Source of the DNA: Mycolicibacterium cosmeticum
GTDB taxonomy: Bacteria; Actinomycetota; Actinomycetes; Mycobacteriales; Mycobacteriaceae
Direction: 5' to 3'
NCBI RefSeq assembly: GCF_000613185.1
Contig: NZ_CCBB010000002.1
Location: 1 to 64,000 of the forward strand
Length of the DNA: 64,000 bases
The notes beneath the pieces were generated by a model that saw nothing but the letters and a program-made list of their open reading frames with translations, searched no databases and had not been told where the DNA came from. Below are positions 28,693-44,239 of this stretch, piece after piece. Within the stretch, counting starts at the first letter, position 1. Each line of letters begins with the position of its first letter. The position numbers and the translations under genes were made by a program.

Positions 28693-29463
28693 TCACGGGG
28701 CGCGCTGGGTGAGCACACCCGCGGCCCGGAAGGGCTTGAGTTGAGACTCGGTGGCCGACTCGTCGGTGACCAGGACGGCGCCGGGCGGGATCGGGGCCCA
28801 GGCATGGAACTGTCGTTGGCCCAGTTTGGCGGCGTGCGCCAGGATGTAGACCGTGCCGGCCCGCTCGATCATCAGCTCCTTGAGCCGGGTCTGTTCCAGC
28901 TCCGCCTCGCAGATGCCCAGCTCGGCATGCACCGAGTCGGCACCGAGGAACGCCCGGTCGAAGGTCAGCCGGGCCAACGTCGCCTCCGCCAGCGGCCCGA
29001 CGAACCCCTGGCTGAGGTGGCGCAGCGTGCCGCCGATGCATTCGACCCGGACATCGTCGGCGTCGGCGAGCTCCTCGAGCGCGCTCAGTCCGGCGGTGAC
29101 CACCGTCAAACCGGGGATATCGCAGAGGAATTCCCCCATCGCACCGACCGTGGTGCCGGCGTCGAGCAGGATGGTCTCGCCGGGGCGCACCTGCGCGGCG
29201 GCCCATTGGGCGATCTGCCGTTTGGCGGCGTAGCCCTCCTGGGCGCGCTGCCGGAACGATGATTCGGGGTGCGGATCCAGCGCGATGGCGCCGCCGTAGG
29301 TGCGCGCGATCAACCCCTGTTCGGTGAGCTGGCCCAGATCGCGGCGGATGGTGGACGCGGTGACGCCGAACTGTGTGGACAGTTCCTCCACGCTGGCCAG
29401 CCCGCTGGACCGCGCGAGCCGCACGATCTCGGCCCGGCGTGCCTGCGACCCGCGTACCGGCAA
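28693..29463 (-). CDS. DeoR/GlpR family regulator of the acid-sugar cluster
   Basis: 256 residues. N-terminal HTH: SVEELSTQFGVTASTIRRDL then LTEQGLIARTYGGA (residues about 24-62), the DeoR signature. The C-terminal sensor is the isomerase-like DeoR domain with ILLDAGTTVGAMGEFL and VVTAGLSALEEL, which in this family binds sugar phosphates. It is the last gene of the minus-strand operon, 4 bp after pdxA2. The phased TGCGCA boxes in the divergent promoter are its likely target, and a phosphorylated intermediate of the pathway its likely inducer (inference). Confidence 0.85.
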   Translation of the reverse strand: MPVRGSQARRAEIVRLARSSGLASVEELSTQFGVTASTIRRDLGQLTEQGLIARTYGGAIALDPHPESSFRQRAQEGYAAKRQIAQWAAAQVRPGETILLDAGTTVGAMGEFLCDIPGLTVVTAGLSALEELADADDVRVECIGGTLRHLSQGFVGPLAEATLARLTFDRAFLGADSVHAELGICEAELEQTRLKELMIERAGTVYILAHAAKLGQRQFHAWAPIPPGAVLVTDESATESQLKPFRAAGVLTQRAP

Positions 29464-29467
29464 ATCC

Positions 29468-30478
29468 CTATCCTTTGACAGTCGTTGTGCTGCTTGCCAA
29501 TTCGGCGGCCTGCCGAAGAGCTTCGACCATACTACCGGCCTCGGCGATACCCTTGCCCGCGATATCGAAAGCCGTGCCGTGATCCACCGAGGTGCGGATC
29601 ACGGGCAGACCAACGGTGATGTTGACCCCGGCCTCGATGCCGAGCACCTTCACGGGGCCGTGCCCCTGGTCGTGGTACATCGCCACGATCAGGTCGTAAT
29701 CGCCACGTCCGGCCAGGAAGAACGCCGTGTCGGCGGGCAGCGGACCGTGCACGTCGATCCCGTCGGCGACCAATTTCTCGACGGCGGGGATGATCTTCTT
29801 CTCCTCCTCGCCGTACCCGAACAGGCCGTTCTCCCCGGCATGCGGGTTGATGCCGCACACCCCGATCTTGGGGTCCGGGTTGCCGGCGCGCACCAGGGCG
29901 TCGTGGCCGCGGCGCACGGTGCGCTCGACCAGTCCCGGCTCGATCCGCCGGACGGCGTCGATCAGGCCGATATGGGTGGTGACATGGATGACCTTGAGCT
30001 TGGGCGTGGACAGCATCATCGACACCTCCTCGGTGCCGGTGAGATGCGCGAGCAGTTCGGTGTGCCCGGGGAACACGTGCCCGGCCGCGTGTAGCGCCTC
30101 CTTGTTCAACGGTGCCGTGCAGATCGCCTGGACCTCGCCACGCACCGCCAATTCGCTGGCCACCCGGATGTACTCATAGGCGGCGTGCCCGGCCGCCGCC
30201 GACAACTGTCCCCAGGGCAGGTCGTCGGGCAGCAGGTCCAGGTCGATGACGTTGATGCGGCCGGGCAGCTGGCGGGCGTCCGCCACGGTGGCGACGGTGA
30301 CGATCTCGGCCGTGCTGCCCAGCAGGGCGGCCGCCTGCGCCAGCCGCTTGGCATCGCCGATCACGACGGGATTGCAGCGGGACTGGGTGGCCGGCTCCAG
30401 CAGCGCGGGCACGATCACCTCCGGGCCGATACCGGCACCGTCGCCCATGGTCACGGCGACAACGGGAAGTCCTGTCAT
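29468..30478 (-). CDS. pdxA2: PdxA-family dehydrogenase (PdxA2, four-carbon acid sugar phosphate)
   Basis: 336 residues. MGDGAGIGPEV at the start; metal-binding histidines in PGHTELLAHLTG, MYHDQGHGP and VDHGTAFDIAG. PdxA makes a vitamin B6 precursor, but copies paired with a DUF1537 kinase are known to oxidise and decarboxylate D-threonate/D-erythronate 4-phosphate to DHAP. The ATGA overlap with the kinase gene, and the absence of other B6 genes, support the PdxA2 role. The real start is ATG 30478; the frame extends upstream inside the kinase gene. Confidence 0.85.
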   Translation of the reverse strand: MTGLPVVAVTMGDGAGIGPEVIVPALLEPATQSRCNPVVIGDAKRLAQAAALLGSTAEIVTVATVADARQLPGRINVIDLDLLPDDLPWGQLSAAAGHAAYEYIRVASELAVRGEVQAICTAPLNKEALHAAGHVFPGHTELLAHLTGTEEVSMMLSTPKLKVIHVTTHIGLIDAVRRIEPGLVERTVRRGHDALVRAGNPDPKIGVCGINPHAGENGLFGYGEEEKKIIPAVEKLVADGIDVHGPLPADTAFFLAGRGDYDLIVAMYHDQGHGPVKVLGIEAGVNITVGLPVIRTSVDHGTAFDIAGKGIAEAGSMVEALRQAAELASSTTTVKG

Positions 30479-31584
30479 GAATTGTCCTTCAATTGGGGGT
30501 GGACATGCTGGGGACTGGCCAGATAGTCGGCGATGGCGACCAGACTGTCGCCGTCGCCGAAACTGCCAGGACGGGTGGCGACGCTGCGCCCGTCGGATGC
30601 GACCGACACCACCGCACCGTGGTGCACCTGGTGGATGGGCCGCAGATCGGTGAGACCGAGGGCGTCGACGACCGCGCGGGCGGTCTCCCCACCGGTCAGA
30701 ATCAGGTCGGGCCGCCGAGCGCCGAGGGCGGGCAGGGCAGAGGCCACCAAACGCCCGATGACGCAGGATAATTCGCTGGCGTGTTCGGGCCGGACTTCGC
30801 CGTCCACCGTGACCACCGCCGGTCCCGCCTCGAGGGCGCGGCACACATCGGCGGGATCGGCGGCACCGCTGAGCAAGTCACCGGCAGCCAGCGGCACGTG
30901 CCGCACACCGGTGCCGACCAGCCGGCGAACCTGTTCGGCCGCGTGCGGATGCGCCGTGCCGATCACGGCGAGCAGGCCGGCCGACGGCGCCCGGCACGCG
31001 AGGGCAGGTGCCTGCTCCGGCAGGGTGCGGGCCAGCGCGGCGGCCAGCGCCGACGTTCCGACCAACTGGGTGCCCGGTGCGACCGAGCGCACGATGGTGT
31101 CGAGGTCGCCGTCACTGGTGGCGTCGCGGACGGTGACATGGGGCCCGAGCAGCTCGGCCAGGGAGTGCGGCGGTGCACCGGATTCGGCCGCCCACGCGTC
31201 GGTGCGGTGCAACGGCACCCCGTCGACGTGTAACACCCCGCCGATCACGCTGCGGCGCAGCGCGGGCAGGGCGGCCGCGACCACCACCGGGCCGCGCTCG
31301 GCCAGCACGTCGACCTCGGCGCGCACATTGCCGCGCAACAACGAGTCGATCTTCTTGACCACCAACACATCCGGTGCCAGCCCAGTCAGGGTCGCGCGGT
31401 GCACCCGCCGGGCGTCCTGTGCCGTCATGGTGCGGGTGTTCAGGTCGAACACGGTGACCCCGGTGGCCGGGACAGCCCCGGCCGCGAGGCACAAGGTGAC
31501 CGGGATGCCGCGGTCGAGGAACGCCGCGGCGGTTTCGGCCGCCCCGGAGAGGTCGTCGGCCAGCACGGCGATGGTGCCGGTCAC
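30475..31584 (-). CDS. Four-carbon acid sugar kinase (DUF1537, DtnK/OtnK-like)
   Basis: 369 residues from GTG. N-terminal sugar-binding domain with VLADDLSGAAETAAAF and KKIDSLLRGNVRAEVD; C-terminal nucleotide domain ending with LTGGETARAVVDALG. DUF1537 kinases phosphorylate threonate, erythronate or related C4 acids with ATP. It is somewhat shorter than the usual 420 or so residues. The start overlaps the SDR stop (GTGA) and the end overlaps pdxA2 (ATGA), so kinase and dehydrogenase are translated together, matching the known threonate pathway order. Confidence 0.85.
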   Translation of the reverse strand: MTGTIAVLADDLSGAAETAAAFLDRGIPVTLCLAAGAVPATGVTVFDLNTRTMTAQDARRVHRATLTGLAPDVLVVKKIDSLLRGNVRAEVDVLAERGPVVVAAALPALRRSVIGGVLHVDGVPLHRTDAWAAESGAPPHSLAELLGPHVTVRDATSDGDLDTIVRSVAPGTQLVGTSALAAALARTLPEQAPALACRAPSAGLLAVIGTAHPHAAEQVRRLVGTGVRHVPLAAGDLLSGAADPADVCRALEAGPAVVTVDGEVRPEHASELSCVIGRLVASALPALGARRPDLILTGGETARAVVDALGLTDLRPIHQVHHGAVVSVASDGRSVATRPGSFGDGDSLVAIADYLASPQHVHPQLKDNS

Positions 31585-32258
31585 AGCGACGCCCCCGCGC
31601 ACTGCACGATGGTCTGGCCGGTGATGCTGCGGGCGTCCGGGCCGAGCAGGAACGCGACCAGTCCGGCCACCTCGGCCGGATCGATGAACCGGCCCAGCGG
31701 CGGCAGTTTCGGTGGGGTGTGCGAGCGGGCCGGGTCGGCCAGCATCGGGGTGTCGGTGGGGCCCGGGGCGACGACGTTGACGGTGATGCCGCGGCCGGCG
31801 AGTTCGGCCGCCCAGGACCGCGCCATCCCCACCAGCGCGGCCTTGGTTGCGGCGTACTGACTCTTGCCGGGATTCCCGGTCATGGTGCGGCTGCCGATCA
31901 GGACCACCCGGGCGCCGTCGGGCAACATCGGCGCCAGCGCGTCGACGAGCGCCTCGGCCGCACCGACGTGGATGCGCCACATCCGCAGCCCGTGGGCGGG
32001 ATCCAGCGCACCGAGCGGCGCCGAGTACTGCAACCCCGCCGCGTGGACGACGGCGTCGACCGCGCCGAGGTCGCGCGCCCACCCGCGCAGCGCATCCAGA
32101 TCACCGAGATCCGTTGTGACGGAGTCGAAGCCGGTGTGCCGGATATCCGGCACCCGACGGCTCAGCCCGATGACGTGCCAGCCGTCGTCGAGTAGGCGGC
32201 GCGCCACGGCGGCGCCGATACCGGAACTGGCGCCGGTGACCACCGCCGTGCCGGTCAT
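31581..32258 (-). CDS. SDR family oxidoreductase of the acid-sugar cluster
   Basis: 225 residues. Cofactor motif VVTGASSGIGAAVARRL at the N-terminus, HAAGL in place of NNAG, VVLIGSRT with catalytic Ser, and QYAATKAALVG with the catalytic Tyr/Lys. NAD(P)-dependent, cytosolic. Overlaps both neighbours (ATGA with the Asp-box gene, GTGA with the kinase). It probably oxidises or epimerises a hydroxyl on the sugar acid before phosphorylation; the substrate cannot be read from sequence. Confidence 0.85.
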   Translation of the reverse strand: MTGTAVVTGASSGIGAAVARRLLDDGWHVIGLSRRVPDIRHTGFDSVTTDLGDLDALRGWARDLGAVDAVVHAAGLQYSAPLGALDPAHGLRMWRIHVGAAEALVDALAPMLPDGARVVLIGSRTMTGNPGKSQYAATKAALVGMARSWAAELAGRGITVNVVAPGPTDTPMLADPARSHTPPKLPPLGRFIDPAEVAGLVAFLLGPDARSITGQTIVQCAGASL

Positions 32259-33439
32259 GTCGGCATCCATGCCGGGCCGACCTCGACGTACTCGATGGCC
32301 TGGCGGAACCGGGTGAACGCGATGTGCAGGGTGTCGCCGGCGGTGGTGATGCTCGGGTAGGAGTACTCCCGGTTCAGGCCGTCCCGGGAATTGTTGGACA
32401 GGCAGTACCCGTCACCGACTTCCAGATTGCGACGCACCGGCCAGGTCAGTCCACCGTCGTCGGACAGCGCCAGCGTCATCGGGGCGCGCGGTGCACCCCA
32501 GAACGCGGTGCGGGAGTCGCCGTCGACAGGTACCTGCGCCGCGGGGGCCGGCCCGTCGGCGGCCAGGCCGTCGTCGTCGATCTCGTCGTAGAGCGATGTG
32601 CGCCGTGCGGTGGCATCGGCGGCGCTGGATTCGTTGCACACCAGGGCCAGCCGGTCATCGGGCAGCACCACGAACTGGATGGACGAATTGTTGTTCGGCA
32701 GTTCGGTGGGCTGCGGTGCCGACCACGTCTGGCCGTCGTCGGTGGAGACGCTGCGGTAGACGAAATCGGCCCAGCGGCTGCGATACAGCGCGACCAGACT
32801 GCCGTCGCAGCGCCGCCCGATGTTCATGTGCACCGCCCCGGTGCTGTCGGGCACCACCACCTCGCGCCAGGTGCCGCCGTCGTCGTCGGAGATCATCACG
32901 CCGCTGTAATCCTGGTCCCCCACCCAGCGCTGTCCCGGGACGCGCACGCAGTGGAAGATCGGCAGCAGCAGCCGTCCGCTGGGCAACCGGACCAGGGGTT
33001 GGCGGACGAACACCCCGCCCTCCTCGGTCTCCGGCAGCAGCACATGCGGTTCGCCCCAGCTGTGCCCGCCGTCGGAGGAGATGCGGCGCAGCACCCGCGC
33101 GGTGTCCTGGTTACCGGCGTGCTGTGAGGTCCACAGCAGCCAAACGTGGTGCGAATCATGCACGTACAGAATCGGATTCTGCTCCGACCGGGTCGGGTCG
33201 TCCGACAGTGCGACGGGTGGTGACCACACCCCGTCGGCGAGCCGGGAGAACCACACCCCGATATCCGGGACACCCTCCTGGGTGCCGGCGAACCACACGC
33301 AACCCAGCGTGCCGTCGGGCAGCACCGCCAGATTGGCGGCATGGTTCTGCACCCGCGGCGCGGGCAGTAGGGCGTCACGGCGGCCGGGCTCGGCGGTCGC
33401 GCGGACGATCCCGTCGGTGCGCAGCGATACGGTGTCCAC
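32255..33439 (-). CDS. Cytoplasmic Asp-box (sialidase-like) protein
   Basis: 394 residues. At least four Asp-box repeats of the sialidase beta-propeller: SSDGGHSW, SDDDGGTW, STDDGQTW and SDDGGLTW, with an early Arg-rich region (APRVQNHAAN) and RQPLVRLPSGRLLLP typical of BNR sialidase-like enzymes. There is no signal peptide, so it acts inside the cell on an imported substrate, unlike secreted sialidases. GTG 33439 is 2 bp after the binding-protein stop and behind GAAGGG. Could be a glycosidase or lyase releasing an acid sugar; true sialic acid activity is unproven, as no Neu5Ac genes are near. Confidence 0.75.
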   Translation of the reverse strand: MDTVSLRTDGIVRATAEPGRRDALLPAPRVQNHAANLAVLPDGTLGCVWFAGTQEGVPDIGVWFSRLADGVWSPPVALSDDPTRSEQNPILYVHDSHHVWLLWTSQHAGNQDTARVLRRISSDGGHSWGEPHVLLPETEEGGVFVRQPLVRLPSGRLLLPIFHCVRVPGQRWVGDQDYSGVMISDDDGGTWREVVVPDSTGAVHMNIGRRCDGSLVALYRSRWADFVYRSVSTDDGQTWSAPQPTELPNNNSSIQFVVLPDDRLALVCNESSAADATARRTSLYDEIDDDGLAADGPAPAAQVPVDGDSRTAFWGAPRAPMTLALSDDGGLTWPVRRNLEVGDGYCLSNNSRDGLNREYSYPSITTAGDTLHIAFTRFRQAIEYVEVGPAWMPT

Positions 33440-33441
33440 GG

Positions 33442-35025
33442 TCAGTCGCCCTTCAGTGACACGGTGGCCAGGTTGTAGGAGTTGGTGGGGCGCAGCGCAA
33501 TCCCGTCGATGCGCGATCGCCTGCCGAGCACCGCCTTCGGCACGAACGACCACAGCATCGGGCAGGTTTTCCAGATGTCGTGCTGCGCCGTGGCCAGCAG
33601 TTCGGCGCGGCGCTCCGCATCCGGTTCCTCCGAAGCTCTGGTGATCTGGGCGGTGATCTCCGGGAACAGGTAACCGTGGTAGGTATCGCGGGTCTTCTCC
33701 TTCTCCTGCGTGCCCGCGTACATGCCCTGCATGATGGTCAGTGCCAACCCGGTCGGGCTGGGGAAGCCGTTTCCGAGGACGTCCCAGTCACCGGCACGGC
33801 CCTGGCGCCACTGGGCGATATCGCCGCCGGGTTCGAACTGGCGCAGGGTGGCGCGCACACCCACGGCCGACAGCATCTGCACCACCGATTCCATGATGTC
33901 GGTGTCGGCCGCGAATTCCCCGCTCTCCCAGATGATCTTGAGCGACAGGTCACGCAGGCCGAGCGCGTCCAGCTCGTGCCGGGCCCGGTCCGGGTCGTAG
34001 GTGTACTCGCCGGTCTCTACGGCGCCGTCCAGGCTCAGCGGGATGACACCCTTGGAGGCGGTGGCCGATTTCTGCAGCACGTTGTCGATCAGTGACGTGC
34101 CGTCGATGGCGTAGGTGAGCGCACGGCGCACCCGGACATCGGCGGTCGGCGCGCCGGGCGGCTTGCGGAAGTTGTAGAACAGCTGATTGAGCCGCACCCC
34201 GTCGGCATGATCCACTGCGACACCGGTCAATCCGGCCAGCTGATCGGTGGAGTCCGGCGTGATGGAGTCGATGACGTCCACCTCGCCACTGCGCAGCGCC
34301 ACCACGCGGCTGGATTCGTCGGGCATGAACCGCACCCGGACCGACTCGACCGACGGGCGCGGACCCCAGTAGTTGACGTTGCGTTCCAGGCTGTAGTTGC
34401 CCAGCCCGCGGTCGGCCGCGGTGACGATGAACGGCCCGGTGCCCACGCCACCCTGCAGATCCTCCGGCCGGTTGGCCGCAGCGGGGGTGACGAGGATGTT
34501 GGACATCAGGTAGTCGAGCACCGGAACCGGGCGTTGGGTGTTCAAGGTGAAACTGGTGGCGTCGATTTTCGCGACGGTCGGCCACTCGGGGAAGAAGCCG
34601 CCGACGAACCCGCCGTGCACCTGGCTGTACATCTGCAGGGCGGTCGCGACGTCTTCGACCTGTACCGGCGATCCGTCGGAGTAGCGGATACCGCGGCGCA
34701 GCCGGACGAACCACTGAGTGGGTGTGGTGAGCCGGAACTCCTCGGCGAGCACCAGCCGCGGGCGCAGGTTCTCGTCGATCTCGGTGAGCGCCTGGCGCAC
34801 GGCGCGCTGCACGGTCAGCGCGGCGTCGTACTGCAGGAGCTTGTTGTCCAGGGTGGTCATGGACCGGTTCATGGCGAGGCTGATCGTGGTGGGACCCGGC
34901 CGGCCGGTGGGGGTGGCGCACCCGGCGGCGGCCGAACCGACGGCCAGGCCCGCACCCAGCAACACCCCGGACCGGAGCAGGTTGCGGCGCGAAAACTGCC
35001 GTTGGAGAACGGGTTTGGTCATCAT
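33442..35025 (-). CDS. ABC importer binding lipoprotein (peptide/opine type)
   Basis: 527 residues. Tat-type signal SRRNLLRSGVLLGAG followed by a lipobox ending AAAGC, so it is an exported lipoprotein. Family SBP_bac_5: LVLAEEFRLTTPTQWFVRLR, the long second domain with RVRRALTYAIDGTSLI, and a C-terminal CPMLWSFVPKAV. It delivers substrate to the permease pair encoded divergently. Although the family is named for peptides, many members bind oligosaccharides or opines. It heads the minus-strand operon. Confidence 0.85.
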   Translation of the reverse strand: MMTKPVLQRQFSRRNLLRSGVLLGAGLAVGSAAAGCATPTGRPGPTTISLAMNRSMTTLDNKLLQYDAALTVQRAVRQALTEIDENLRPRLVLAEEFRLTTPTQWFVRLRRGIRYSDGSPVQVEDVATALQMYSQVHGGFVGGFFPEWPTVAKIDATSFTLNTQRPVPVLDYLMSNILVTPAAANRPEDLQGGVGTGPFIVTAADRGLGNYSLERNVNYWGPRPSVESVRVRFMPDESSRVVALRSGEVDVIDSITPDSTDQLAGLTGVAVDHADGVRLNQLFYNFRKPPGAPTADVRVRRALTYAIDGTSLIDNVLQKSATASKGVIPLSLDGAVETGEYTYDPDRARHELDALGLRDLSLKIIWESGEFAADTDIMESVVQMLSAVGVRATLRQFEPGGDIAQWRQGRAGDWDVLGNGFPSPTGLALTIMQGMYAGTQEKEKTRDTYHGYLFPEITAQITRASEEPDAERRAELLATAQHDIWKTCPMLWSFVPKAVLGRRSRIDGIALRPTNSYNLATVSLKGD

Positions 35026-35083
35026 CGACCCTCCGGGCGAGACTCTGCTGTGACGGCTGACACAACCGAACTCTACGCCCTAA

Positions 35084-35120
35084 TGCGCACAACGCGCAAT
35101 CGACTGCGCATACTTGCGCA
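35084..35120. promoter_or_regulatory. Phased TGCGCA boxes between the divergent operons
   Basis: TGCGCA (itself palindromic) occurs at 35084, 35105 and 35115, with a one-mismatch copy CGCGCA at 35093; steps are 9, 12 and 10 bp, about one helical turn each. A DeoR-family protein often binds such short phased repeats. The site lies midway between the two operons. Confidence 0.6.
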
Positions 35121-35185
35121 AAACACGCAGGCGTGACATTGTGAGCTGAGTAACAGCACCTCCTCGTTCGACGAAGGACGTCTCG

Positions 35186-36181
35186 ATGACCCAACAGCTC
35201 GACGCACCGGCCCGCCGGCCCGCGCGCCGCTGGTTCACCGCCGCCATGCCGAGATACATCATCCGGCGGCTGGGGCAGAGCTTGCTCACCGTGTTCCTCA
35301 CCCTCACCACGGTGTTCGTCCTGATCCGGTTGGCGCCGGGGGACCCGGCCGACGCCATCGCCGGGCCGCTGGCCACCACCGAAGACCTGGCCCGCATCCG
35401 CACCGATCTGGGGCTCGACGAGTCGCTGTTCATCCAGTACCTGCGCTACCTGCAGGGAATGCTGCACCTGGACCTGGGCACCTCGTACTCGTTCCAGGCC
35501 CCGGCCTTGGACGTCGTGCTGGGCCGGCTGCCGTACACGATCACGCTGTCGGTCGCCGCGATCCTGCTGACCACCGCGGTGGCGGTGCCACTGGGGGTGT
35601 GGATGGCCCGCCGGGCCGACACCCGTCGCGAACTGGCCGCCAACGCCGTCACGATCACCGGGCAGTCCATGCCGGACTTCTGGACCGGGCTGATGCTCAT
35701 CACGCTGTTCGCCGTGCTCATCCCGGTGTTCCCGGCCGCCGGTTTCACCACCTGGTCCAGCCTGGTGCTGCCGACGGTCACCATCGCGGTGCTGCAGGTC
35801 GCGCTGATCTCGCGGATGGTGCGCCGTGAGATGGTCGGCGCGTTCAACTCGCCCTACATCATCGTGGGCCGGGCCCGAGGGGTCTCCGAGCGCGAACTGA
35901 TCTGGCGGTACGCCATGCGTAACTCGGCCATCCCGGTGCTCACCGCGCTCGGCACCCGATTCGCGTCGATGCTCAACGGTGTCGTCGTGGTGGAGGTGGT
36001 GTTCGCCTGGCCCGGTGTCGGCTCGCTGGTGGTCCGCGCGCTGGAGACCCGGGACTATCCGCTGATCCAGGCCACCGTGCTGGTGACCGCCGTGCTGGCG
36101 GTGCTGGTGCAGCTGGTGGTCGACCTCTGCTATCCGGTGCTCGATCCGCGGGTACGGCTCGGGAAGGGAACCGCCAAATGA
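35186..36181 (+). CDS. ABC importer permease (DppB type)
   Basis: 331 residues with six membrane segments; the N-terminal YIIRRLGQSLLTVFLTLTTV, then GDPADAIAG and the loop RTDLGLDESLFIQYL are DppB/OppB hallmarks. The EAA-like coupling loop is GRARGVSERELIWRYAMRNS. ATG after GACGAAGGACG. First gene of the plus-strand operon; overlaps the second permease by ATGA. Confidence 0.9.
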   Translation: MTQQLDAPARRPARRWFTAAMPRYIIRRLGQSLLTVFLTLTTVFVLIRLAPGDPADAIAGPLATTEDLARIRTDLGLDESLFIQYLRYLQGMLHLDLGTSYSFQAPALDVVLGRLPYTITLSVAAILLTTAVAVPLGVWMARRADTRRELAANAVTITGQSMPDFWTGLMLITLFAVLIPVFPAAGFTTWSSLVLPTVTIAVLQVALISRMVRREMVGAFNSPYIIVGRARGVSERELIWRYAMRNSAIPVLTALGTRFASMLNGVVVVEVVFAWPGVGSLVVRALETRDYPLIQATVLVTAVLAVLVQLVVDLCYPVLDPRVRLGKGTAK

Positions 36182-37131
36182 CCGCATCGCCGGCCACCAT
36201 CGTCTATCCGACCCCCACCCAGGAGCGCCCGTCGGCCGTCACCGCGCGTGATATCGCGCGCGCCGGTGCCACGCGCCGGGCCAGGGACAGCCGGGTCAAG
36301 ATCTGGATCGGCGGCATCGCCGCCCTGATCGTGATACTGCCGGTGGCGTTTGCCCGCATCCTGCCGGTGCCCTCGCCGGACGCCACCGACCTGGCCGCCC
36401 GCCGGCTGCCGCCCCTGACCGACGGGCACCTGTTCGGCACCGACCAGCTGGGCCGCGACCTGCTGGCCCGGGTGCTCTACGGCGGGCAGGTGTCCCTGGC
36501 CATCGGCATCCTGGCCGTGGTGGTGTCCGGCCTCATCGGCTTGACGCTCGGCGCCCTCGCCGGCTATCGCGGTGGCTGGGTCGACACCGTGGTCAGCCGC
36601 CTGCTGGAAGCCCAGCTGTCGCTGCCACTGCTGATGATGCTGCTCCTGGTGGTGGCCCTGTTCGGGCCGTCCATCCCGGTCATCACCTTCGTCATCGCCA
36701 TTGCGCAGTGGCCCGAGATCGCGCGCCTGACAAGGTCCTTGACGTTGGTGGAGCGGGAGAAACCCTATGTGGCGGCCGCGCACGTACTGGGCCTCGGGCG
36801 CACCGCGATCCTGCTGCGCCACATCATCCCGAACATCGTCAAGCAGGTCTCTCTGGTGGTACTGCTGCTGCTCGCGCAGGCGGTGCTGCTGGAAAGCGCG
36901 CTGAGCTACCTCGGTGCCGGCCCGCAGCGCCCGTTCGCCACCTGGGGCCGCATCATCTCCGACGGCCAGGATTACGTCACCACCTCGTGGTGGCTGGTCA
37001 CCCTCCCCGGGTTGGCCATCGCGCTGTTGGTGGTCGGGGTGAATCTGCTCGGCGACGGCCTGCGAGATCACGCCGGCTTCCCCAAAACCGGTCTGCTGAG
37101 CCGGTTCTCGCTCCGAAAGAAGGCGGCCTGA
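36178..37131 (+). CDS. ABC importer permease (DppC type)
   Basis: 317 residues. One N-terminal membrane segment, the DppC marker HLFGTDQLGRDLLARVLYGG (near residue 84), then five segments with coupling loop AAAHVLGLGRTAILLRHIIPN. Pairs with the upstream DppB-type subunit. The C-terminus NLLGDGLRDHAGFPKTG is usual. 1 bp separates it from the first ATPase gene. Confidence 0.9.
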   Translation: MTASPATIVYPTPTQERPSAVTARDIARAGATRRARDSRVKIWIGGIAALIVILPVAFARILPVPSPDATDLAARRLPPLTDGHLFGTDQLGRDLLARVLYGGQVSLAIGILAVVVSGLIGLTLGALAGYRGGWVDTVVSRLLEAQLSLPLLMMLLLVVALFGPSIPVITFVIAIAQWPEIARLTRSLTLVEREKPYVAAAHVLGLGRTAILLRHIIPNIVKQVSLVVLLLLAQAVLLESALSYLGAGPQRPFATWGRIISDGQDYVTTSWWLVTLPGLAIALLVVGVNLLGDGLRDHAGFPKTGLLSRFSLRKKAA

Positions 37132-37132
37132 G

Positions 37133-37945
37133 ATGGCGAAACTGCTCTGCGTCGAGGAACTCCAGATCGAGCTGATCACCGCGGCGGGCGTGATCCGCGC
37201 CGTGGACGGCGTGTCCTTCGACATCGAGGCCGGTGAAACCGTCACCATCATCGGCGAATCCGGATCGGGGAAGTCCACCACCGCGATGGGCATCCTCGGG
37301 CTGTTGCCGGCGGACCTGGCCGTGTTGTCCGGGTCGGCGACCTTCGGGGGCCGGCCCATCCTGGGGGACGACAGGGCGCTGTGTGCCGTTCGCGGTCGGC
37401 ATATCGCCCTGATTCCGCAGGATCCGATGACGGCGCTGAGCCCCGTGCACACCATCGGCGCACAGCTGCGTGACGCCATCCGGCACAGCGGTGTCAGCGG
37501 CCGGGCCCGGCAGCGCGAGCGCGCGGTGGAACTGCTCGAACAGGTGAAGATCCCGCGCCCCGCCGAACAACTCGGCAAGTACCCGCATCAGCTCTCCGGC
37601 GGTCAGCTGCAGAGGGTGCTGATCTCGGCCGCGCTCGCCGCCGGGCCGGAGTTGATCGTCGCCGACGAACCCACCAGTGCACTCGATGTCACCGTGCAGG
37701 CCAGCATCCTGGACCTGTTACTGGAACTGCAGGAGCGCACGGGTATCGGCATGCTGCTGATCACCCACGACCTCGGGGTGGCGCGGTTGATGTCGGACCG
37801 TATCTTCGTGATGCGCAACGGGCGGTTCGTCGAGGGCGGAGCCGCCGAGGAACTGCTGCGCGCCCCCCAAACCGAGTACACCCAGCGGCTGCTGGCCGCG
37901 GTACCGCGGCTGGACAATGCGGCCACGATCGGAGTTCCGGCATGA
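37133..37945 (+). CDS. ABC importer ATPase (DppD type)
   Basis: 270 residues. Walker A GESGSGKSTTAMG (near residue 38), Q-loop IPQDPMTALSP, signature LSGGQLQRV, Walker B LIVADEPTSALDVT and switch ITHDLGVA. DppD/OppD-type proteins normally continue to about 320 residues with an Fe-S-binding Cys motif; this one ends soon after the switch, so that tail is missing. ATGA overlap with the second ATPase. Confidence 0.9.
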   Translation: MAKLLCVEELQIELITAAGVIRAVDGVSFDIEAGETVTIIGESGSGKSTTAMGILGLLPADLAVLSGSATFGGRPILGDDRALCAVRGRHIALIPQDPMTALSPVHTIGAQLRDAIRHSGVSGRARQRERAVELLEQVKIPRPAEQLGKYPHQLSGGQLQRVLISAALAAGPELIVADEPTSALDVTVQASILDLLLELQERTGIGMLLITHDLGVARLMSDRIFVMRNGRFVEGGAAEELLRAPQTEYTQRLLAAVPRLDNAATIGVPA

Positions 37946-38769
37946 GCGAGCTCTTGACGGTGACGGACCTGGTCGTCGAATACCCCAACGGCAACGGCGT
38001 GTTCCGCGCGCTCGACGCCGTCAGCTTCACCGTGCAGCGCGGCACCACCCTGGCCGTCGTCGGGGAGTCGGGTTGCGGCAAGTCGACCCTGGCAAAGGCC
38101 ATCGTCCGCCTGCTCACCCCGACGTCGGGCCGGATCGTGTTCGACGGCACCGATATAGCGGCGCTGTCCGAGCGCGCCCTGCGGCCGCTGCGGTCGCGCA
38201 TCCAGATGGTGTTCCAGGACCCGTACGGATCGCTGGACCCGCACCTGGATGCCGTCGACATCGTCGCCGAACCGCTACGCCTGCAGGGCATCAGCAGCCG
38301 TGCCGCGCGCCGGCAGCGGGCCGCGGAACTGATCGACCGGGTGGGGTTGCCCTCGACGGCGCTGCACCGCAAGCCCGCCGAGTTCTCCGGCGGACAGCGG
38401 CAACGCATCGGGATCGCCCGCGCCCTGGCCAGTGGACCCGACCTGCTGGTCTGCGACGAGGCGACCAGCGCACTGGACGTGTCGGTTCAGGCGCAGGTGC
38501 TCGGCCTGCTGCGCGAGATCAAACGCGACACCGGCCTGACCTACCTGTTCATCACGCACAATCTCGGGGTGGTGCGCGAAATCAGTGACAGCATCATCGT
38601 GATGCGGGGCGGCGCCATCGTCGAGCAAGGCGCGAGCGCCGAAGTGCTCGCGCATCCGCAGCAGTCCTACACCCGCGCTTTGCGCGCGGCGGCGCTGGAC
38701 CCGACCGCCATGGTCGGCGTCAAACCACGAAACGTATTGCGTATCAACCAGGAACAGGGAGTCGCATAG
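37942..38769 (+). CDS. ABC importer ATPase (DppF type)
   Basis: 275 residues. Walker A GESGCGKSTLAKA, Q-loop MVFQDPYGSLDPHL (the DppF signature), LSGG-equivalent FSGGQRQRIG, Walker B LLVCDEATSALDVS and ITHNLGVV. Forms the motor with the DppD-type ATPase. Its TAG stop shares one base with the GTG of the aldo/keto reductase gene. Confidence 0.9.
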   Translation: MSELLTVTDLVVEYPNGNGVFRALDAVSFTVQRGTTLAVVGESGCGKSTLAKAIVRLLTPTSGRIVFDGTDIAALSERALRPLRSRIQMVFQDPYGSLDPHLDAVDIVAEPLRLQGISSRAARRQRAAELIDRVGLPSTALHRKPAEFSGGQRQRIGIARALASGPDLLVCDEATSALDVSVQAQVLGLLREIKRDTGLTYLFITHNLGVVREISDSIIVMRGGAIVEQGASAEVLAHPQQSYTRALRAAALDPTAMVGVKPRNVLRINQEQGVA

Positions 38770-39725
38770 TGTCCGACCTGCAGTTGTCCCCGCTCGTCCT
38801 GGGCACGATGACCTTCGGCGACACCGTCGATACCGTGGGCGCCCAACGGATGTTCGACGCGGCATTGGATGCGGGTATCACCCACGTCGACACCGCCAAC
38901 GGGTACGCGGGCGGCGAGACCGAACGCATCCTGTCCGGGCTGCTCAAGGAGCGGCGGGACCGGGTCACCCTGGCCACCAAGGCCGGGATGCCGCACCCGG
39001 ATGCGGGCGGGCACGCGCCGCTGTCGGCCGCCGGATTGCGTGCCAGCATCGAAGGCAGCCTGTCCCGTCTGGGCACCGACCACGTCGAGTTGTTCTACCT
39101 GCATCAACCCGACCGCGACACACCGCTGGCCGAAACCCTGTCCACCGTCGCCGAATTGGTGAAGGAAGGCAAGATCGGCGCGTTGGGGGTGTCCAACTAC
39201 GCGGCGTGGCAGATCGGCGAGATCAACCACCTCGCCGACGAGGTGGGGGCGCCGCGGCCGCTGGTCGCCCAACAGCTCTACAACCTGCTGGCGCGCCGGA
39301 TCGAGGACGAGTACGCGGAGTTCGCCGCGGTCACCGGGTTGACCACCATGGTGTACAACCCGCTCGGAGGTGGATTGCTGACCGGGCGGCACACGTTCGA
39401 CGCCGACCCCGCCGACGGACGGTTCGGAACGTCCCGGTTGGCCCAGATGTACAAGCAGCGCTACTGGAACACTGCGATTTTCGAGGCGATCGAGGCACTG
39501 TCGGTGATCTCCGAGAAGGCCGGTGTGCCGCTGACCGAACTGGCGCTGCGCTGGCTGCTGTCCAAGCCGGTGACCGGGCCGATCCTGCTCGGCGGCTCGA
39601 AAGTCGGCCATCTGCAAGCCAATATCGCGGTGCTGGCGAAGGGACCGCTGCCCGCCGACGTGGTGGAAGCCTGTGATGATGTGGGTGCGGCACTGCGCGG
39701 CCCGATGCCGAACTACAACCGATAG
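38769..39725 (+). CDS. Aldo/keto reductase
   Basis: 318 residues. VLGTMTFGDTVD at the start, catalytic Asp/Tyr in HVDTANGYAGGETE (near residues 38-52), Lys in LATKAGM, His in LFYLHQPDRDTP and the NADP site LLGGSKVGHLQANI near the C-terminus. NADPH-dependent sugar or carbonyl reductase, cytosolic. In the catabolic operon it may oxidise or reduce the sugar released by the Asp-box protein. GTG start overlapping the ATPase stop. Confidence 0.85.
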   Translation: MSDLQLSPLVLGTMTFGDTVDTVGAQRMFDAALDAGITHVDTANGYAGGETERILSGLLKERRDRVTLATKAGMPHPDAGGHAPLSAAGLRASIEGSLSRLGTDHVELFYLHQPDRDTPLAETLSTVAELVKEGKIGALGVSNYAAWQIGEINHLADEVGAPRPLVAQQLYNLLARRIEDEYAEFAAVTGLTTMVYNPLGGGLLTGRHTFDADPADGRFGTSRLAQMYKQRYWNTAIFEAIEALSVISEKAGVPLTELALRWLLSKPVTGPILLGGSKVGHLQANIAVLAKGPLPADVVEACDDVGAALRGPMPNYNR

Positions 39726-39732
39726 GTCGACG

Positions 39733-40497
39733 ATGAGCGCACACGAATTCGCCGCCCGGCTGCGCCGCCGGGAACGCATCCTGGGTTACTGGTCGGTGCT
39801 GGACTGTCCCGTCGCGCACGAGTGGCTGGCGCACGTCGGCTGGGACTACCTGGCCCTGGACCTGCAGCACGGGCTGATCGGCTACTCCGGCATGCTGGCC
39901 GGCCTGACGGCCATCGACGCCGCGGGCGGGCCGGTGGGGCTGGTCCGCGTCGAAGCCAACGATCCGACCCCGATCGGGCGGGCGCTGGATGCCGGGGCCG
40001 CCGGGGTGATCGTCCCGCTCGTCAACACCGCCGACGAGGCCGCGGCCGCCGTGGCCGCGGCGACCTACCCGCCCAACGGAATCCGCTCCTACGGTCCGAT
40101 GCGCTCCCAACTGCGGATCGGGCCGCTGCCCGCCGACGCCGACCGGGACACCGTCGTGCTGGCGATGATCGAGACCCCGCGCGGCCTGGCCGAGGTGGCC
40201 GAGATCTGCGCCGTGCCCGGCCTGGACGGCGTCTACGTCGGCCCGTCGGATCTGCGGCTGGCCGTCGGTGGTGCGCACTCCAACGACCCCGCCGTCGCCG
40301 ACGAGTTCGAGGCCGCCCTGCAGAAGGTGCGCGAGGCCGCCGCGGCGGCCGGTATCGCCGCGGGCATCCACACCCCCGACGGGGCGACCGCGGCACGACG
40401 GCTGGCCCAGGGCTTCACCTTCGCCTCGGTCGCCTCGGACGTCACCCACCTCAAGGCGGTCTCGGCCGGGCATCTCAAGGACGCGCTGGGCGGGTAG
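39733..40497 (+). CDS. HpcH/HpaI aldolase family protein
   Basis: 254 residues. Class II pyruvate aldolase fold: GYWSVLDCPVAHEWL, LDLQHG (usually DxEHG, so Glu is replaced by Gln), VEANDPTPIGRALDAGAAGV, YPPNGIRSYGP and metal ligands in MIETPRGL and VGPSDLRL. Such enzymes cleave 2-keto-3-deoxy acids to pyruvate and an aldehyde. The ATG at 39733 follows the AKR stop by 7 bp; the longer frame overlaps it. Last gene of the transporter operon, and probably the C-C bond-breaking step. Confidence 0.85.
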   Translation: MSAHEFAARLRRRERILGYWSVLDCPVAHEWLAHVGWDYLALDLQHGLIGYSGMLAGLTAIDAAGGPVGLVRVEANDPTPIGRALDAGAAGVIVPLVNTADEAAAAVAAATYPPNGIRSYGPMRSQLRIGPLPADADRDTVVLAMIETPRGLAEVAEICAVPGLDGVYVGPSDLRLAVGGAHSNDPAVADEFEAALQKVREAAAAAGIAAGIHTPDGATAARRLAQGFTFASVASDVTHLKAVSAGHLKDALGG

Positions 40498-40543
40498 CCC
40501 CGACCCGGAATACGGGACACGGGCGGCACGGTTGCGCTCCGAT

Positions 40544-40984
40544 GTGACCGCTTCCACACCCGAGACCTTCGATCCGCATGCCCTGCTCGCCGAAGCCCGG
40601 CTCGGCGTGCTGGCCACCATCAAGGCCAACGGCCTCCCACAGCTGTCCCCGGTGACGCCGTTCTACGACCGAGCGGCCGGCGTCATCTACGTCTCGATGA
40701 CCGACGGCCGGGCCAAGACCGCCAACCTGCGCCGGGACCCTCGGGCGGCGCTGGAGGTGACCAGTGCCGACGGCTGGGCCTGGGCCACCGCCGAGGGCGC
40801 GGTGACGCTGACCGGCCCGGGCACCGATCCGGACGGACCGGAGGTGGCCGCGCTGGTCGACTACTACCGTGCCGCGGCCGGGGAACACCCGGACTGGGAC
40901 GAGTACCGGTCGGTGATGGTGTCCGACCGGCGCGTGCTGATGGCGCTGCGGGTGCAGCGCGTGTACGGCGAGAAGCTGCGCTGA
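40544..40984 (+). CDS. PPOX-class F420-dependent oxidoreductase
   Basis: 146 residues of the split-barrel flavin/F420 fold: ARLGVLATIKANGLPQLSPV (residues about 16-35), DGRAKTANLRRDPRAALEV and the C-terminal RRVLMALRVQRVYG. These use deazaflavin F420 or FMN on small substrates. Start GTG 40544; the open frame extends far upstream but overlaps the aldolase gene. The gene is 46 bp after the aldolase and probably not functionally tied to it. Confidence 0.8.
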   Translation: MTASTPETFDPHALLAEARLGVLATIKANGLPQLSPVTPFYDRAAGVIYVSMTDGRAKTANLRRDPRAALEVTSADGWAWATAEGAVTLTGPGTDPDGPEVAALVDYYRAAAGEHPDWDEYRSVMVSDRRVLMALRVQRVYGEKLR

Positions 40985-41433: not shown

Positions 41434-41580
41434 TCTCAGCCGCTCCACCCGTCCTGCGGGTCGATCCGGCCGGCGCGCCAGGTGCGTTCCCGAGCCTGTG
41501 TTCCGACCGACATGGCGGTCAGCACAAGAGTGTTCGGCAGGACATTGTCGCGTGGGCTGTATCACGGTCATCGTGTACTC

Positions 41581-42648
41581 GTGATCGCCATCACAGGAAC
41601 TCGACTTGTCAGGATCGCCGTTGCGTTCGCATCGGTCATCACCGTCGCCGTGTCCACGGCGTGCTCGGCCGGACTCGGTGGGCCGGCCTCGTCGCGAGCG
41701 GCGCAGGACGGCGTCATCCGGTTCACCTTCGCGCCGGACCCGATCTGGGACTACATGCACGACACCGGCGTGATCGAGCAATGGGAACGCGATACCGGCT
41801 ATTCCATCGAAACCAGCGCCACCTGGGACGAATTCGGGCTGTTCGCCGGCGGGCACGCCGACATCATCTCGTCGGCCTCCTTCGAGGTGCCCGCGCTGGA
41901 GGAACAGACCCGGCGCGAGACCGTCATCATCGGTCGCTACAACGCCGAACGCAGCCGCATCCTGGTTCGTGCCGACGACCCCGCCCGCTCACTGGAGGAT
42001 CTACGGGGCCGCCGGCTCGGTGTGTTCACCACGGTCTCGGGCACGTTGGTGTGGAGCGCGCTGGTCCAGCAGATGCACGGTATGAACCTCGTCGACGCCG
42101 GCGAGCGGCCCAGCGATTTCGACGTGGTGGTCGCCGACATCCAGAACCTGTCGAACCTGGTGGCGCGCGGCGAGATCGACGCCTGTATCTGCTATCCCGA
42201 CCTGTCCGCGCGCGAGCTGCGCAACGGCTCGGTGCGCCCGCTGTACGAGGGCAAGTCGTCAGCCGACCTGTTCGCCGAACTCAAGGCGCCCGGGCACGAC
42301 GGCCCGATGGGCAACGTCTTCGTCGCGCGCAAGGACTGGGTGGACGGGCATCCCGGCGAGGTGTCGGCATTCCTGGACCTGTGGGACCGCGGGCTGGCCG
42401 AATGGCAGGCGCACCGCGACGACATGATCGAGCGGTATCCGCAGCACTTCGCCGTCGCCTCCGAAGAGGACATCGCGTTCATGAAGGACTATGTGGCCCA
42501 ACATGACTGGGTGGTCGACGAAGTCCGCTTCGGTCAGAAGTGGGCCGACGACGAGAGCTCGATCTTCGACCTGATGCGCAGCACCGGCGTCATCGCTGGC
42601 GATACCGCCGATCCGCAGTTCCTGCCCACCGAAGGAGTCCGCCAGTGA
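41581..42648 (+). CDS. ABC importer binding lipoprotein (NMT1/SsuA type)
   Basis: About 355 residues. Hydrophobic signal segment LVRIAVAFASVITVAVSTAC with a lipobox-like STAC, then IRFTFAPDPIWDYMHDTG, the GGHADIISSASFE segment that lines the pocket in this family, and LRGRRLGVFTTVSGT. Substrates are often sulfonates, nitrate or pyrimidine precursors; this one cannot be assigned. Start uncertain: GTG 41581 gives a compact signal peptide; starts at 41482 and 41512 are in frame. GTGA overlap with the permease gene. Confidence 0.8.
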   Translation: MIAITGTRLVRIAVAFASVITVAVSTACSAGLGGPASSRAAQDGVIRFTFAPDPIWDYMHDTGVIEQWERDTGYSIETSATWDEFGLFAGGHADIISSASFEVPALEEQTRRETVIIGRYNAERSRILVRADDPARSLEDLRGRRLGVFTTVSGTLVWSALVQQMHGMNLVDAGERPSDFDVVVADIQNLSNLVARGEIDACICYPDLSARELRNGSVRPLYEGKSSADLFAELKAPGHDGPMGNVFVARKDWVDGHPGEVSAFLDLWDRGLAEWQAHRDDMIERYPQHFAVASEEDIAFMKDYVAQHDWVVDEVRFGQKWADDESSIFDLMRSTGVIAGDTADPQFLPTEGVRQ

Positions 42649-43469
42649 CCCAGACCTTCCCGGACGCACAGGTCCGGCCGGCAGCGCCCGCCGCCCGGCG
42701 TCCCGTCCGCGTGCCGCTGCAACACCGGCGCTGGCTGGTCTCCGGCCTGGCGCTGCTGTCCGCGCTCGCGCTGTGGGAGCTGGCCGCGGTGATCGTCGAC
42801 GACCCGATCCTGCCCGACCCCGCCGATGTGGCCGACCGGGTGATCGGCATCGTCGTCTCGGGCGAGGCGTTCACCAATTTCGCCGCCAGCATCGGCAAGA
42901 TCGCGGCCGGCTTCGCCATCGCGATGGTGACCGGTCTGATCATCGGATTCGCCATGGGGCGTTCACCATTCATGACGGCCTACTTTTCACTGCCGCTGTT
43001 CGTCCTGGGCAACATGCCCGGCCTGACCTACGCGGTGTTCGGCCTGCTCATCTTCGGTGTCGGTGCCGGCGGACCGATCGTGGTGTCGGCTTTGGTGGCC
43101 ACTCCCTTCATCGCGATCAACGTGGCCGAGGGAGTGCGGTCGGTGGACGGCAAGCTGCTCGCCATGTGCGCTGCCTTCCAGCGCAACCGCACCGACATCC
43201 TGCGCCACCTCTACCTGCCGGCGCTGACCACCTTCGTATTCGCCGGTGTCCGTTACGGATTCGCCATGGCCTGGAAGGTCGAGGCCCTCACCGAGGTGTT
43301 CGGTGCCAGCAATGGCGTCGGATTCATGATCCGCAAGGCCTACCAGGAATTCCAGGTGGCCGACATGCTGGCCTGGACCGCGCTGTTCATCGTCACGATG
43401 GTGCTGATCGAACGCGGCCTGGCCCACCTGGAAACCCGGTTCTTCGCATGGCGCAAGGAGATCGCATGA
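42645..43469 (+). CDS. ABC importer permease 1 (NitT/TauT type)
   Basis: 274 residues with six membrane segments and the coupling loop EGVRSVDGKLLAMCAAFQRN. The start GTG 42645 overlaps the binding-protein stop; the ATGA at its end overlaps permease 2. Two different permease genes rather than one homodimeric permease is unusual for this transporter class. Confidence 0.85.
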   Translation: MTQTFPDAQVRPAAPAARRPVRVPLQHRRWLVSGLALLSALALWELAAVIVDDPILPDPADVADRVIGIVVSGEAFTNFAASIGKIAAGFAIAMVTGLIIGFAMGRSPFMTAYFSLPLFVLGNMPGLTYAVFGLLIFGVGAGGPIVVSALVATPFIAINVAEGVRSVDGKLLAMCAAFQRNRTDILRHLYLPALTTFVFAGVRYGFAMAWKVEALTEVFGASNGVGFMIRKAYQEFQVADMLAWTALFIVTMVLIERGLAHLETRFFAWRKEIA

Positions 43470-44239
43470 CCACCGTGACCCTTCGACAGCTGCGGGGCCA
43501 GAGCACCACGGCCGCAGCGGTTCTGGCAGCCGTCGCCACCATCGTCGGAGCCTGGCAACTGGCCGTGCTGGTCGGTAACCGGGTGCCCTCACTGTCTGAG
43601 AGCATCGGCCGGTTGGGGTCCGAAGCCGCCATCGGCGAACTGTGGACCAACCTGGCCATCAGCATGAACCGGTTCCTGCTCGGGTTGGTCGCCGCGCTGG
43701 TCGTGGGCGCCGCGATCGGCGTCCTGATGGGGCTGTCCCGGGTCGCCGATCTCGCGTTCTCCGATCTGAATGCCGCCGCCCTGGCGATCCCCGCCGTGAT
43801 CTGGGCGCTGCTGACCACGATGTGGTTCGGATTCGGCTGGCTGACCCCGGTGGTGACGGTGTTCCTGTCCGGATTGCCGTTCGTCATCGTCAACATCGCC
43901 AAGGCGACCAGGGCGGTGCCCGCCGAACTGGTACTGATGGCGCGGGCATTCGGGGTCCCCCGGACCCGCGTGCTGCGTGAGATCGTCGCCCCCGCCGTCG
44001 CCGGATCCACCGTGGCGGCAGTGCGTTTCGCGATCATGAGCGCCTGGAACGGCCTGCTGCTCGCCGAATGGTTCGGCTCCACCTCCGGGGTCGGCTGGCG
44101 GTCCCGCTACTGGTATGACGCCAACCAGCTCGACGGCTTTCTGGCCTGGGTGCTGGTGTTCATTCTGCTGCTCGTGATCGCCGACCTGCTGATCCTCGGA
44201 CCCATCGAGCGGTACGCCACCCGCTGGCGCACCGCCTGA
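43466..44239 (+). CDS. ABC importer permease 2 (NitT/TauT type)
   Basis: 257 residues, six membrane segments, coupling loop KATRAVPAELVLMARAFGVP. Shares the fold of permease 1 but is clearly different in sequence, so the two probably form a heterodimer with one ATPase. ATG 43466 overlaps the upstream stop; the longer open frame is an artefact of GC bias. Confidence 0.85.
   Translation: MTTVTLRQLRGQSTTAAAVLAAVATIVGAWQLAVLVGNRVPSLSESIGRLGSEAAIGELWTNLAISMNRFLLGLVAALVVGAAIGVLMGLSRVADLAFSDLNAAALAIPAVIWALLTTMWFGFGWLTPVVTVFLSGLPFVIVNIAKATRAVPAELVLMARAFGVPRTRVLREIVAPAVAGSTVAAVRFAIMSAWNGLLLAEWFGSTSGVGWRSRYWYDANQLDGFLAWVLVFILLLVIADLLILGPIERYATRWRTA

Follow-up and report, generated by a model that had tools for sequence, protein, structure and literature searches.

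Zhang et al. are said to have shown in 2016 (PNAS) that a DUF1537 kinase and PdxA2 together convert D-threonate and D-erythronate to dihydroxyacetone phosphate (DHAP), and we know of no obvious abundant source of D-threonate as a catabolic substrate. The same kinase and PdxA2 core leading to DHAP was predicted in a twelve-gene regulon of Mycolicibacterium cosmeticum, at positions 28693 to 40497 of a 64,000-nucleotide stretch of contig NZ_CCBB010000002.1 (the whole stretch is hereafter called the window). This core is already known; judged from the sequence, the novelty would lie upstream and around it, in a putative pyruvate aldolase, a reductase, a sialidase-fold protein, a short-chain dehydrogenase/reductase (SDR) and an importer, with D-threonate as an intermediate and not as the imported compound. 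Another described cluster, ltnD-otnK-otnI-denD-otnC for L-threonate and D-erythronate, likewise combines a DeoR-type regulator with a DUF1537 kinase for C4 acids, but there the C4 acid is the growth substrate, and the available portion of the source names neither a sialidase-fold protein nor PdxA2 (PMC10580937).

The regulon was interpreted as a system for the uptake and complete breakdown of a C7 3-deoxy-2-keto-diacid, most likely 3-deoxy-D-lyxo-hept-2-ulosaric acid (Dha) of rhamnogalacturonan II (RG-II), a reading to which we give an even chance. The core chemistry (aldol cleavage, reduction, kinase and PdxA2 steps) is considered fairly probable. That this is a widely shared Dha pathway, in which Dha, freed by an intracellular enzyme of sialidase fold and new active site, is converted by way of D-tetruronate and D-threonate to DHAP, is proposed tentatively. 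What was observed is the gene content with its conservation and replacements, the fold and the enrichment of TGCGCA sites; the substrates, the reactions and DeoR binding are all predictions. Dha, free or as a small ketoside, would be imported by the Opp-type importer (by acid symporters in relatives), and its 2-keto group would be freed or opened by the Asp-box sialidase-fold protein, with the SDR as an accessory. The HpaI-type aldolase (elsewhere an aldolase of the dihydrodipicolinate synthase (DHDPS) family) would split C3-C4 to yield pyruvate and the tetruronate OHC-CHOH-CHOH-COO-, whose aldehyde would be reduced to D-threonate by the aldo/keto reductase (AKR; elsewhere an iron-containing alcohol dehydrogenase, Fe-ADH). 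The DUF1537 kinase would then produce 4-phospho-D-threonate, and PdxA2 would oxidise and decarboxylate it to DHAP and CO2, both operons being putatively governed by DeoR through TGCGCA repeats. The features of the locus are:

28693..29463, minus strand: DeoR/GlpR-type regulator (TTG start; PF00455 137 bits, PF08220 60 bits)
29468..30478, minus strand: PdxA2, predicted 4-phospho-D-threonate dehydrogenase (decarboxylating), product DHAP (PF04166 358.8 bits)
30475..31584, minus strand: DUF1537 four-carbon acid sugar kinase, short form of 369 aa, predicted D-threonate 4-kinase (PF07005 93 bits, PF17042 58.3 bits)
31581..32270, minus strand: SDR oxidoreductase accompanying the Asp-box gene (PF13561 122 bits)
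32255..33439, minus strand: Asp-box (BNR_2) protein, GH33 sialidase fold, presumed cytoplasmic (GTG start; predicted Dha release from a small or internal ketoside)
33442..35025, minus strand: SBP_bac_5 lipoprotein of an Opp/Dpp-type importer (PF00496 187 bits)
35026..35185, no strand: divergent promoter region of 160 bp, candidate DeoR operator (TGCGCA at 35084, 35105 and 35115)
35186..36181, plus strand: Opp/Nik-type permease, B position (PF00528 130 bits; NF045470 302 bits, below the cut-off of 350)
36178..37131, plus strand: second Opp-type permease, C position (PF00528 79.5 bits)
37133..37945, plus strand: ABC ATPase, OppD position (PF00005 89 bits)
37942..38769, plus strand: ABC ATPase, OppF position (PF00005 122 bits; NF008453 277 bits, below the cut-off of 408)
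38769..39725, plus strand: aldo/keto reductase, predicted to convert the tetruronate to D-threonate (PF00248 219 bits)
39733..40497, plus strand: HpcH/HpaI pyruvate aldolase, predicted 3-deoxy-hept-2-ulosarate aldolase (PF03328 108 bits)

All twelve open reading frames (ORFs) exceeded the Pfam cut-offs for the families named, from DeoR to HpcH/HpaI, and Opp/Nik-type models were the best match for one permease and one ATPase. In its N-terminus the substrate-binding protein (SBP) has a twin-arginine stretch as well as a Cys resembling that of a lipobox. Within the minus operon the central genes overlapped (BNR/SDR by 16 bp, SDR/kinase at GTGA and kinase/PdxA at ATGA), and the outer junctions were gaps of 2 bp (SBP-BNR) and 4 bp (PdxA-DeoR); in the plus operon B/C, D/F and F/AKR overlapped, with gaps of 1 bp (C-D) and 7 bp (AKR-HpaI). 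The ORF coordinates and Pfam matches bore out the twelve genes, families and positions listed in the first-pass annotation of this DNA, and the DNA itself its start/stop overlaps through the middle minus-strand genes and its two operons diverging from one 160-bp region.

The conserved catabolic module, carried by soil and plant bacteria, is real. Scanning GTDB contigs for the Asp-box protein yielded 114 loci, and among the best 80 of these the complete twelve-gene set lay together in 67 (the window's own locus excluded); scattering of the genes in relatives, named beforehand as what would refute the proposal, was not found. Three of the 13 incomplete loci were at contig ends (L019, L046 and L069), five had no ABC importer (L062, L067, L068, L071 and L080), and one, from Paenibacillus (L081), matched only PdxA and BNR of the window's proteins. 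With the window included, 76 of 81 loci gave a DeoR match. Median identities (near-identical L002 and L029 excluded) were 79% for PdxA (75 loci), 75-78% for the permeases (78% for the second, 70 loci), 68% for the OppD-position ATPase (70 loci), 71% for the OppF-position ATPase, 69% for HpaI and 65% for BNR; the DUF1537 kinase was the fastest-evolving gene (39%, well below its neighbours). M. canariasense showed the same gene order, with an Asp-box protein 98% identical to that of the window.

The spread of the module was patchy: BNR (E<=1e-60) was present in 3 of 396 Actinomycetota genomes and in 8 of 198 genomes of the genus, own genome counted in both. A close PdxA (at least 75% identity) occurred in exactly those 3 of the 396 genomes and lay 2 to 10 kb away from BNR; of the 26 PdxA matches (E<=1e-80), the remaining 23 were 49-54% identical and came from one distant family. 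Among 7999 candidates scored, 4293 proteins matched the Asp-box protein at E<=1e-30, not all of them expected to belong to the subfamily. As a side observation, one member of the distant actinobacterial family f18 (G439, L137) has its 49-54% PdxA next to a DUF1537 kinase, and the 14 kb read there held no BNR match.

Outside Actinomycetota, tblastn searches of plasmid collections, which are biased, found the Asp-box protein in 309 records, chiefly from Rhizobium, Sinorhizobium, Pantoea and Agrobacterium. From beyond the main set, fifteen BNR loci (Paenibacillus L081 and 14 on plasmids) were hand-picked for taxonomic spread and compared, with several queries drawn from those same loci. PdxA, a DHDPS-family aldolase and an Fe-ADH were present in 13 of the 15, none of these 13 with an AKR match, and a kinase was detectable in 12. 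Among the parts sought, L099 carried only BNR, an SSF carrier, YhcH and SDR, and the Pandoraea relative L100 had a remote BNR with no module genes nearby. Three further loci agreed by annotation, the third with an unnamed ORF at the kinase position. Kinase and PdxA were fused in Caballeronia (L083 5100-7406, 768 aa), and two Pantoea loci carried in addition YhcH/DUF386, a family demonstrated to open N-acetylneuraminic acid (Neu5Ac) for its aldolase (PMC8141875). The module ranged over Actinomycetota, Alpha-, Beta- and Gammaproteobacteria and Paenibacillus. In a survey of 398 Bacillota genomes, the one that passed E<=1e-40 was the genome of the query. The Sinorhizobium meliloti module was read on pSymA, unlike the DUF1537 kinases named on pSymB in the accessible part of one report (PMC12904279). 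Two sets of more distant relatives were also seen. Paenibacillus L134 (5905-10220; G001, C60) carried two BNR_2 paralogues (29% and 44% identical to the Pantoea BNR) in a polysaccharide locus with GH95, an MGH1-like glycoside hydrolase (GH), a 904-aa protein without a Pfam match and a sugar ABC importer; haloarchaeal plasmids (Haladaptatus, Halomontanus) carried remote relatives (24% identity in NZ_CP119793.1 49397-50425).

A search with the Azospirillum aldolase gave 154 plasmid records, six of which were read. Agrobacterium fabrum C58 had BNR, and BNR was not found in the stretch read of the other five (L128, L129, L130, L131 and L132). All five BNR-free loci carried the aldolase, Fe-ADH and a D-2-hydroxyacid dehydrogenase, and four also kinase and PdxA; aldolase, reductase, kinase and PdxA being kept together, the core appears to be one unit with an exchangeable entry step. 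We infer that the entry enzyme would be BNR where a ring or ketoside needs freeing, and a 2-hydroxyacid dehydrogenase where the 2-keto group needs making. The acid-sugar catabolic role first suggested for the locus was supported.

The exchanged parts point to the chemistry. HpaI aldolases are metal-dependent (class II) and DHDPS/N-acetylneuraminate lyase (NAL) aldolases form a Schiff base (class I); both are barrels of separate superfamilies and mechanisms with pyruvate as common nucleophile, and their presence in the same slot makes pyruvate a likely common product. AKR and Fe-ADH are unrelated aldehyde-reducing enzymes, and aldol cleavage yields an aldehyde; a tetronate can arise from this reduction only if the aldolase releases a tetruronate, which in turn requires a 3-deoxy-hept-2-ulosarate as the aldolase's substrate. 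When the stereochemistry was worked out, D-lyxo Dha, cleaved and reduced, gave D-threonate, one of four tetronates. Building on the sialidase-like hint of the first-pass annotation, the substrate is probably a sialic-acid-like 2-ulosonic acid (Dha). 3-Deoxy-D-manno-octulosonic acid (Kdo), Neu5Ac and hexuronate were also considered as substrates and rejected, because none needs DUF1537 and PdxA2 after aldol cleavage. In the parts of the sources available, Dha is termed a seven-carbon sialic acid analogue (PMC6811678), and is confined in plants to RG-II, which is found across all plants (PMC12168206).

The divergent promoter regions of 70 loci were compared, 32 with the Mycobacterium/Rhodococcus arrangement (window included) and 38 with the Arthrobacter/Streptomyces arrangement; 2 of the 71 loci with divergent arrangement were dropped because the region was outside 50-600 bp. 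TGCGCA occurred at 5.3 and 4.1 per kb in the two arrangements, 0.44 per kb in whole loci and 0.3 per kb in mononucleotide shuffles, an enrichment of about nine- to twelvefold over whole loci, which are mostly coding and an imperfect control. At least one TGCGCA was present in 56 of the 70 regions, and the window has three sites inside 37 bp (35084-35120). This enrichment supports one DeoR regulon, and with the co-location in 67 of 80 loci it favours the first-pass view of two operons under common control; the repeats are candidate DeoR operators, putatively bound by DeoR.

The Asp-box protein showed the sialidase propeller fold in a fold search, the matches listed being sialidases, together with four S-x-D-x-G-x-[ST]-W repeats, as expected of GH33 Asp boxes, and an N-terminus that by eye was not signal-like. 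The residues expected of a GH33 active site were different. The Glu of the NanB/NanC segment, which we take to be the partner of the catalytic Tyr, aligned with H205 (numbered on 32258-33442); this His belongs to a VHM motif carried by every row of two alignments (52 of 52 in A2 and 13 of 13 in A3). An RIP motif near the N-terminus, presumably carrying the first Arg of the sialidase triad, was found in none of the 52 A2 or 13 A3 rows, in which the only two RIP strings were at residue 172 of P0103 and residue 399 of L085; at the place we assume to be equivalent (judged by eye), Q[NS]HA was found in all rows but one of A2 (51 of 52) and in all 13 of A3. The protein is, on these alignments, not a canonical GH33 sialidase, the fold being kept and the catalytic residues altered. 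A weak profile match (E = 0.0037) was obtained to the solved chain 5mqr, which we take to be the GH143 Dha hydrolase of Bacteroides thetaiotaomicron. That GH143 was missing from the fold-search matches does not count as evidence. We propose that the Asp-box protein may free Dha, with less than even confidence in its exact job and in that of the SDR.

Two distant BNR relatives were located among RG-II or pectin-type genes. On a Streptomyces plasmid (L150 1644-12424), a BNR relative (39% identical) was accompanied by a DHDPS-family aldolase (34% identity with the Azospirillum enzyme across 222 residues), an Opp importer, a DUF5605 protein and a protein resembling apiosidases (65.8 bits with PF13204, cut-off 26.5). 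A gene annotated as GH28 lies some 8 kb away; apiose is an RG-II sugar. On a Bacteroides finegoldii plasmid (L151 2226-6092), a 1288-aa fusion of GH78 rhamnosidase and BNR_2 (24% identity to the S. meliloti protein) adjoined a GH140 apiosidase (397 bits with PF13204); annotations in the stretch also include GH28, GH78 and a polysaccharide lyase, and this was regarded as an RG-II type locus.

The window kinase was over the cut-off for both the SBD_N and NBD_C domains of the DUF1537 family. In Pantoea, the PdxA of P. ananatis (BNR present, 666.7 bits) and P. vagans (BNR-free, 656.8) exceeded the D-threonate-4-phosphate dehydrogenase cut-off (583), and the P. vagans kinase (520.4) exceeded the D-threonate kinase cut-off (450), in independent agreement with the D-threonate derived from the stereochemistry of Dha. 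In Comamonadaceae and Caballeronia both PdxA and kinase were below these cut-offs, as was the kinase of Azospirillum. The DUF1537 and PdxA2 core leading to DHAP, recognised from the start, is supported. PdxA2 is described, in the part of the source consulted, as an organic-acid catabolic paralogue (PMC9997740). A vitamin B6 role for PdxA was rejected: the genome has a single PdxA match and two pdxS, and because pdxS is present and pdxA single, PdxA need not serve B6. The two pdxS (SOR_SNZ) copies had identical scores (G000:C1:368087-368704 and G000:C3:2138031-2138648) and are perhaps a duplicated segment. The D-threonate kinase profile has 422 positions, some 50 more than the window kinase (30475-31584) has residues.

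Several results weigh against the Dha reading. The window proteins were below the cut-offs of the curated models: the kinase reached 91 bits with the best NCBIfam D-threonate kinase model (cut-off 450), PdxA 346 bits with NF002891 (583), the PdxA domain being present, and HpaI 138 bits with the HpaI model (369) and 147.5-148.5 bits with GarL-type models (407). In the modules tested, PdxA passed in 2 of 4 and the kinase in 1 of 4, all from Pantoea, and the passing kinase came from a BNR-free module. HpaI was missing from three Streptomyces loci (L038, L041 and L073), in the first of which DeoR was also unseen, its expected place lying past the flank, and L034 lacked PdxA, kinase, AKR and HpaI. 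No kinase match was found in the 19 kb read of P. ananatis (L082), and searching whole plasmids for the window kinase failed to detect even the fused protein of Caballeronia, which makes that search too insensitive to prove a kinase absent. The SDR, present in 8 of the 15 BNR loci outside Actinomycetota and in none of the five BNR-free loci, appears to go with the Asp-box gene and is not firmly placed in the pathway. No kinase or PdxA was annotated near the L150 and L151 relatives, which may therefore act on Kdo. Of 86 ORFs picked automatically in the flanks of 31 chosen loci, 75 from 28 loci were scanned (11 were already known genes or overlapping calls), and no pectin-degrading family was among the 25 listed of 89 families. 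If Dha is taken up free, BNR would be left without an evident hydrolysis target. The BNR-free modules with a D-2-hydroxyacid dehydrogenase indicate that the core also serves another entry compound, so that some other 3-deoxy-heptarate may be its natural substrate.

This last point leads to the alternative that survives best, and that is still unlikely: the same core chemistry, by way of D-threonate or D-erythronate, acting on another C7 3-deoxy-2-ketoaldarate or its lactone, with the Asp-box protein as a lactonase or mutarotase. The D-2-hydroxyacid dehydrogenase would fit it, as would the SMP-30 lactonase of Roseomonas mucosa and the Ldh-family enzyme of Chelatococcus, both found in BNR-free loci, and the acid symporters in the importer's place, through which the free acid may enter. 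Against these stand the glycosidase (sialidase) fold of BNR and its two distant relatives amid RG-II or pectin-type genes; moreover, Dha is the one natural C7 compound of the 3-deoxy-hept-2-ulosarate kind known to us.

The carriers bear more directly on the suggestion of the first-pass annotation that a larger substrate, a glycoside with a preformed C4 acid, is imported and hydrolysed by the Asp-box protein, the C4 acid going to kinase and PdxA2 and HpaI acting on a separate sugar acid. Peptide-type importers can accept larger ligands, and DUF1537 and PdxA2 by themselves are reported to suffice for D-threonate and D-erythronate. An Opp-type importer was present in Rhizobiaceae loci; it was replaced by an SSF carrier in Pantoea, Caballeronia, Azospirillum, Methylobacterium and Roseomonas, a CitMHS carrier in Paenibacillus and a tripartite tricarboxylate transporter (TTT) binding protein in a Comamonadaceae leaf isolate, and full TTT carriers were annotated in 3 of 5 BNR-free loci. 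In two of the five ABC-less actinobacterial loci, those tested, the best model for the MFS carrier was TIGR00883 (metabolite:H+ symporter, MHS; 372 and 373 bits, below 443), followed by shikimate, ProP and tricarballylate models. Most of these replacements (SSF, MHS-like MFS, CitMHS and TTT) point to a small acid, and the joint presence of aldolase, reductase, kinase and PdxA in four BNR-free loci fits one linear chain. The C4 acid is better read as the aldol-cleavage product of a C7 diacid, aldolase and reductase accounting for it, and the preformed-acid glycoside is improbable. A sialic-acid or Kdo cluster with a true sialidase is very improbable: the GH33 fold, the NAL/DHDPS-family aldolases and YhcH with SSF in Pantoea would suit it, but the aldol products arabinose and N-acetylmannosamine (ManNAc) need neither DUF1537 kinase nor PdxA2, the catalytic Glu aligns with an invariant His, no NanE/NanK/NagA-type product was annotated beside the modules read (plasmid gene tables being incomplete), and the twelve genes hold an HpaI-type aldolase with no NanE or NanK in place of a NAL aldolase with ManNAc kinase/epimerase.

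Beyond the regulon, a PNPOx-like flavin protein (40525-40984) lies directly past HpaI; of the fetched loci, the nearest relative (L002) alone gave a match to this protein, which is probably outside the regulon. Directly downstream (41482-44239), the ORF list shows what appear to be the SBP and permease genes of a further ABC importer.

No description of this gene set or of Dha catabolism was found in the open-licence literature, a scope outside which most subscription journals fall, and within it the original impression that no described pathway has this exact gene set held; in the portions of the papers surveyed, Dha release is discussed and Dha catabolism is not. If the Dha reading is true, the D-threonate pathway gains a natural source, and the names “exo-alpha-sialidase”, “PdxA” and “dihydrodipicolinate synthase family protein” become correctable for many proteins. 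Nan operons have the same order of jobs (freeing a 2-ulosonic acid, opening it and cutting off pyruvate) and share the SSF, YhcH and aldolase families with the Pantoea modules, whereas in the predicted Dha pathway the aldehyde would be reduced and passed to an acid-sugar kinase and PdxA2 instead of ManNAc kinase/epimerase, and the sialidase-fold protein has no signal-like N-terminus and changed active-site residues. In homoprotocatechuate catabolism HpaI cleaves 4-hydroxy-2-oxoheptane-1,7-dioate to pyruvate and succinate semialdehyde, likewise a pyruvate aldolase step on a C7 2-keto diacid with an aldehyde-acid product, but the window HpaI scored far below the cut-off of the HpaI model and its neighbours are sugar-acid enzymes. 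GH143 of B. thetaiotaomicron releases Dha, as proposed for BNR, but according to the part of the source available it has two modules with two active centres and acts on the polysaccharide, whereas BNR is a single domain (PMC6811678).

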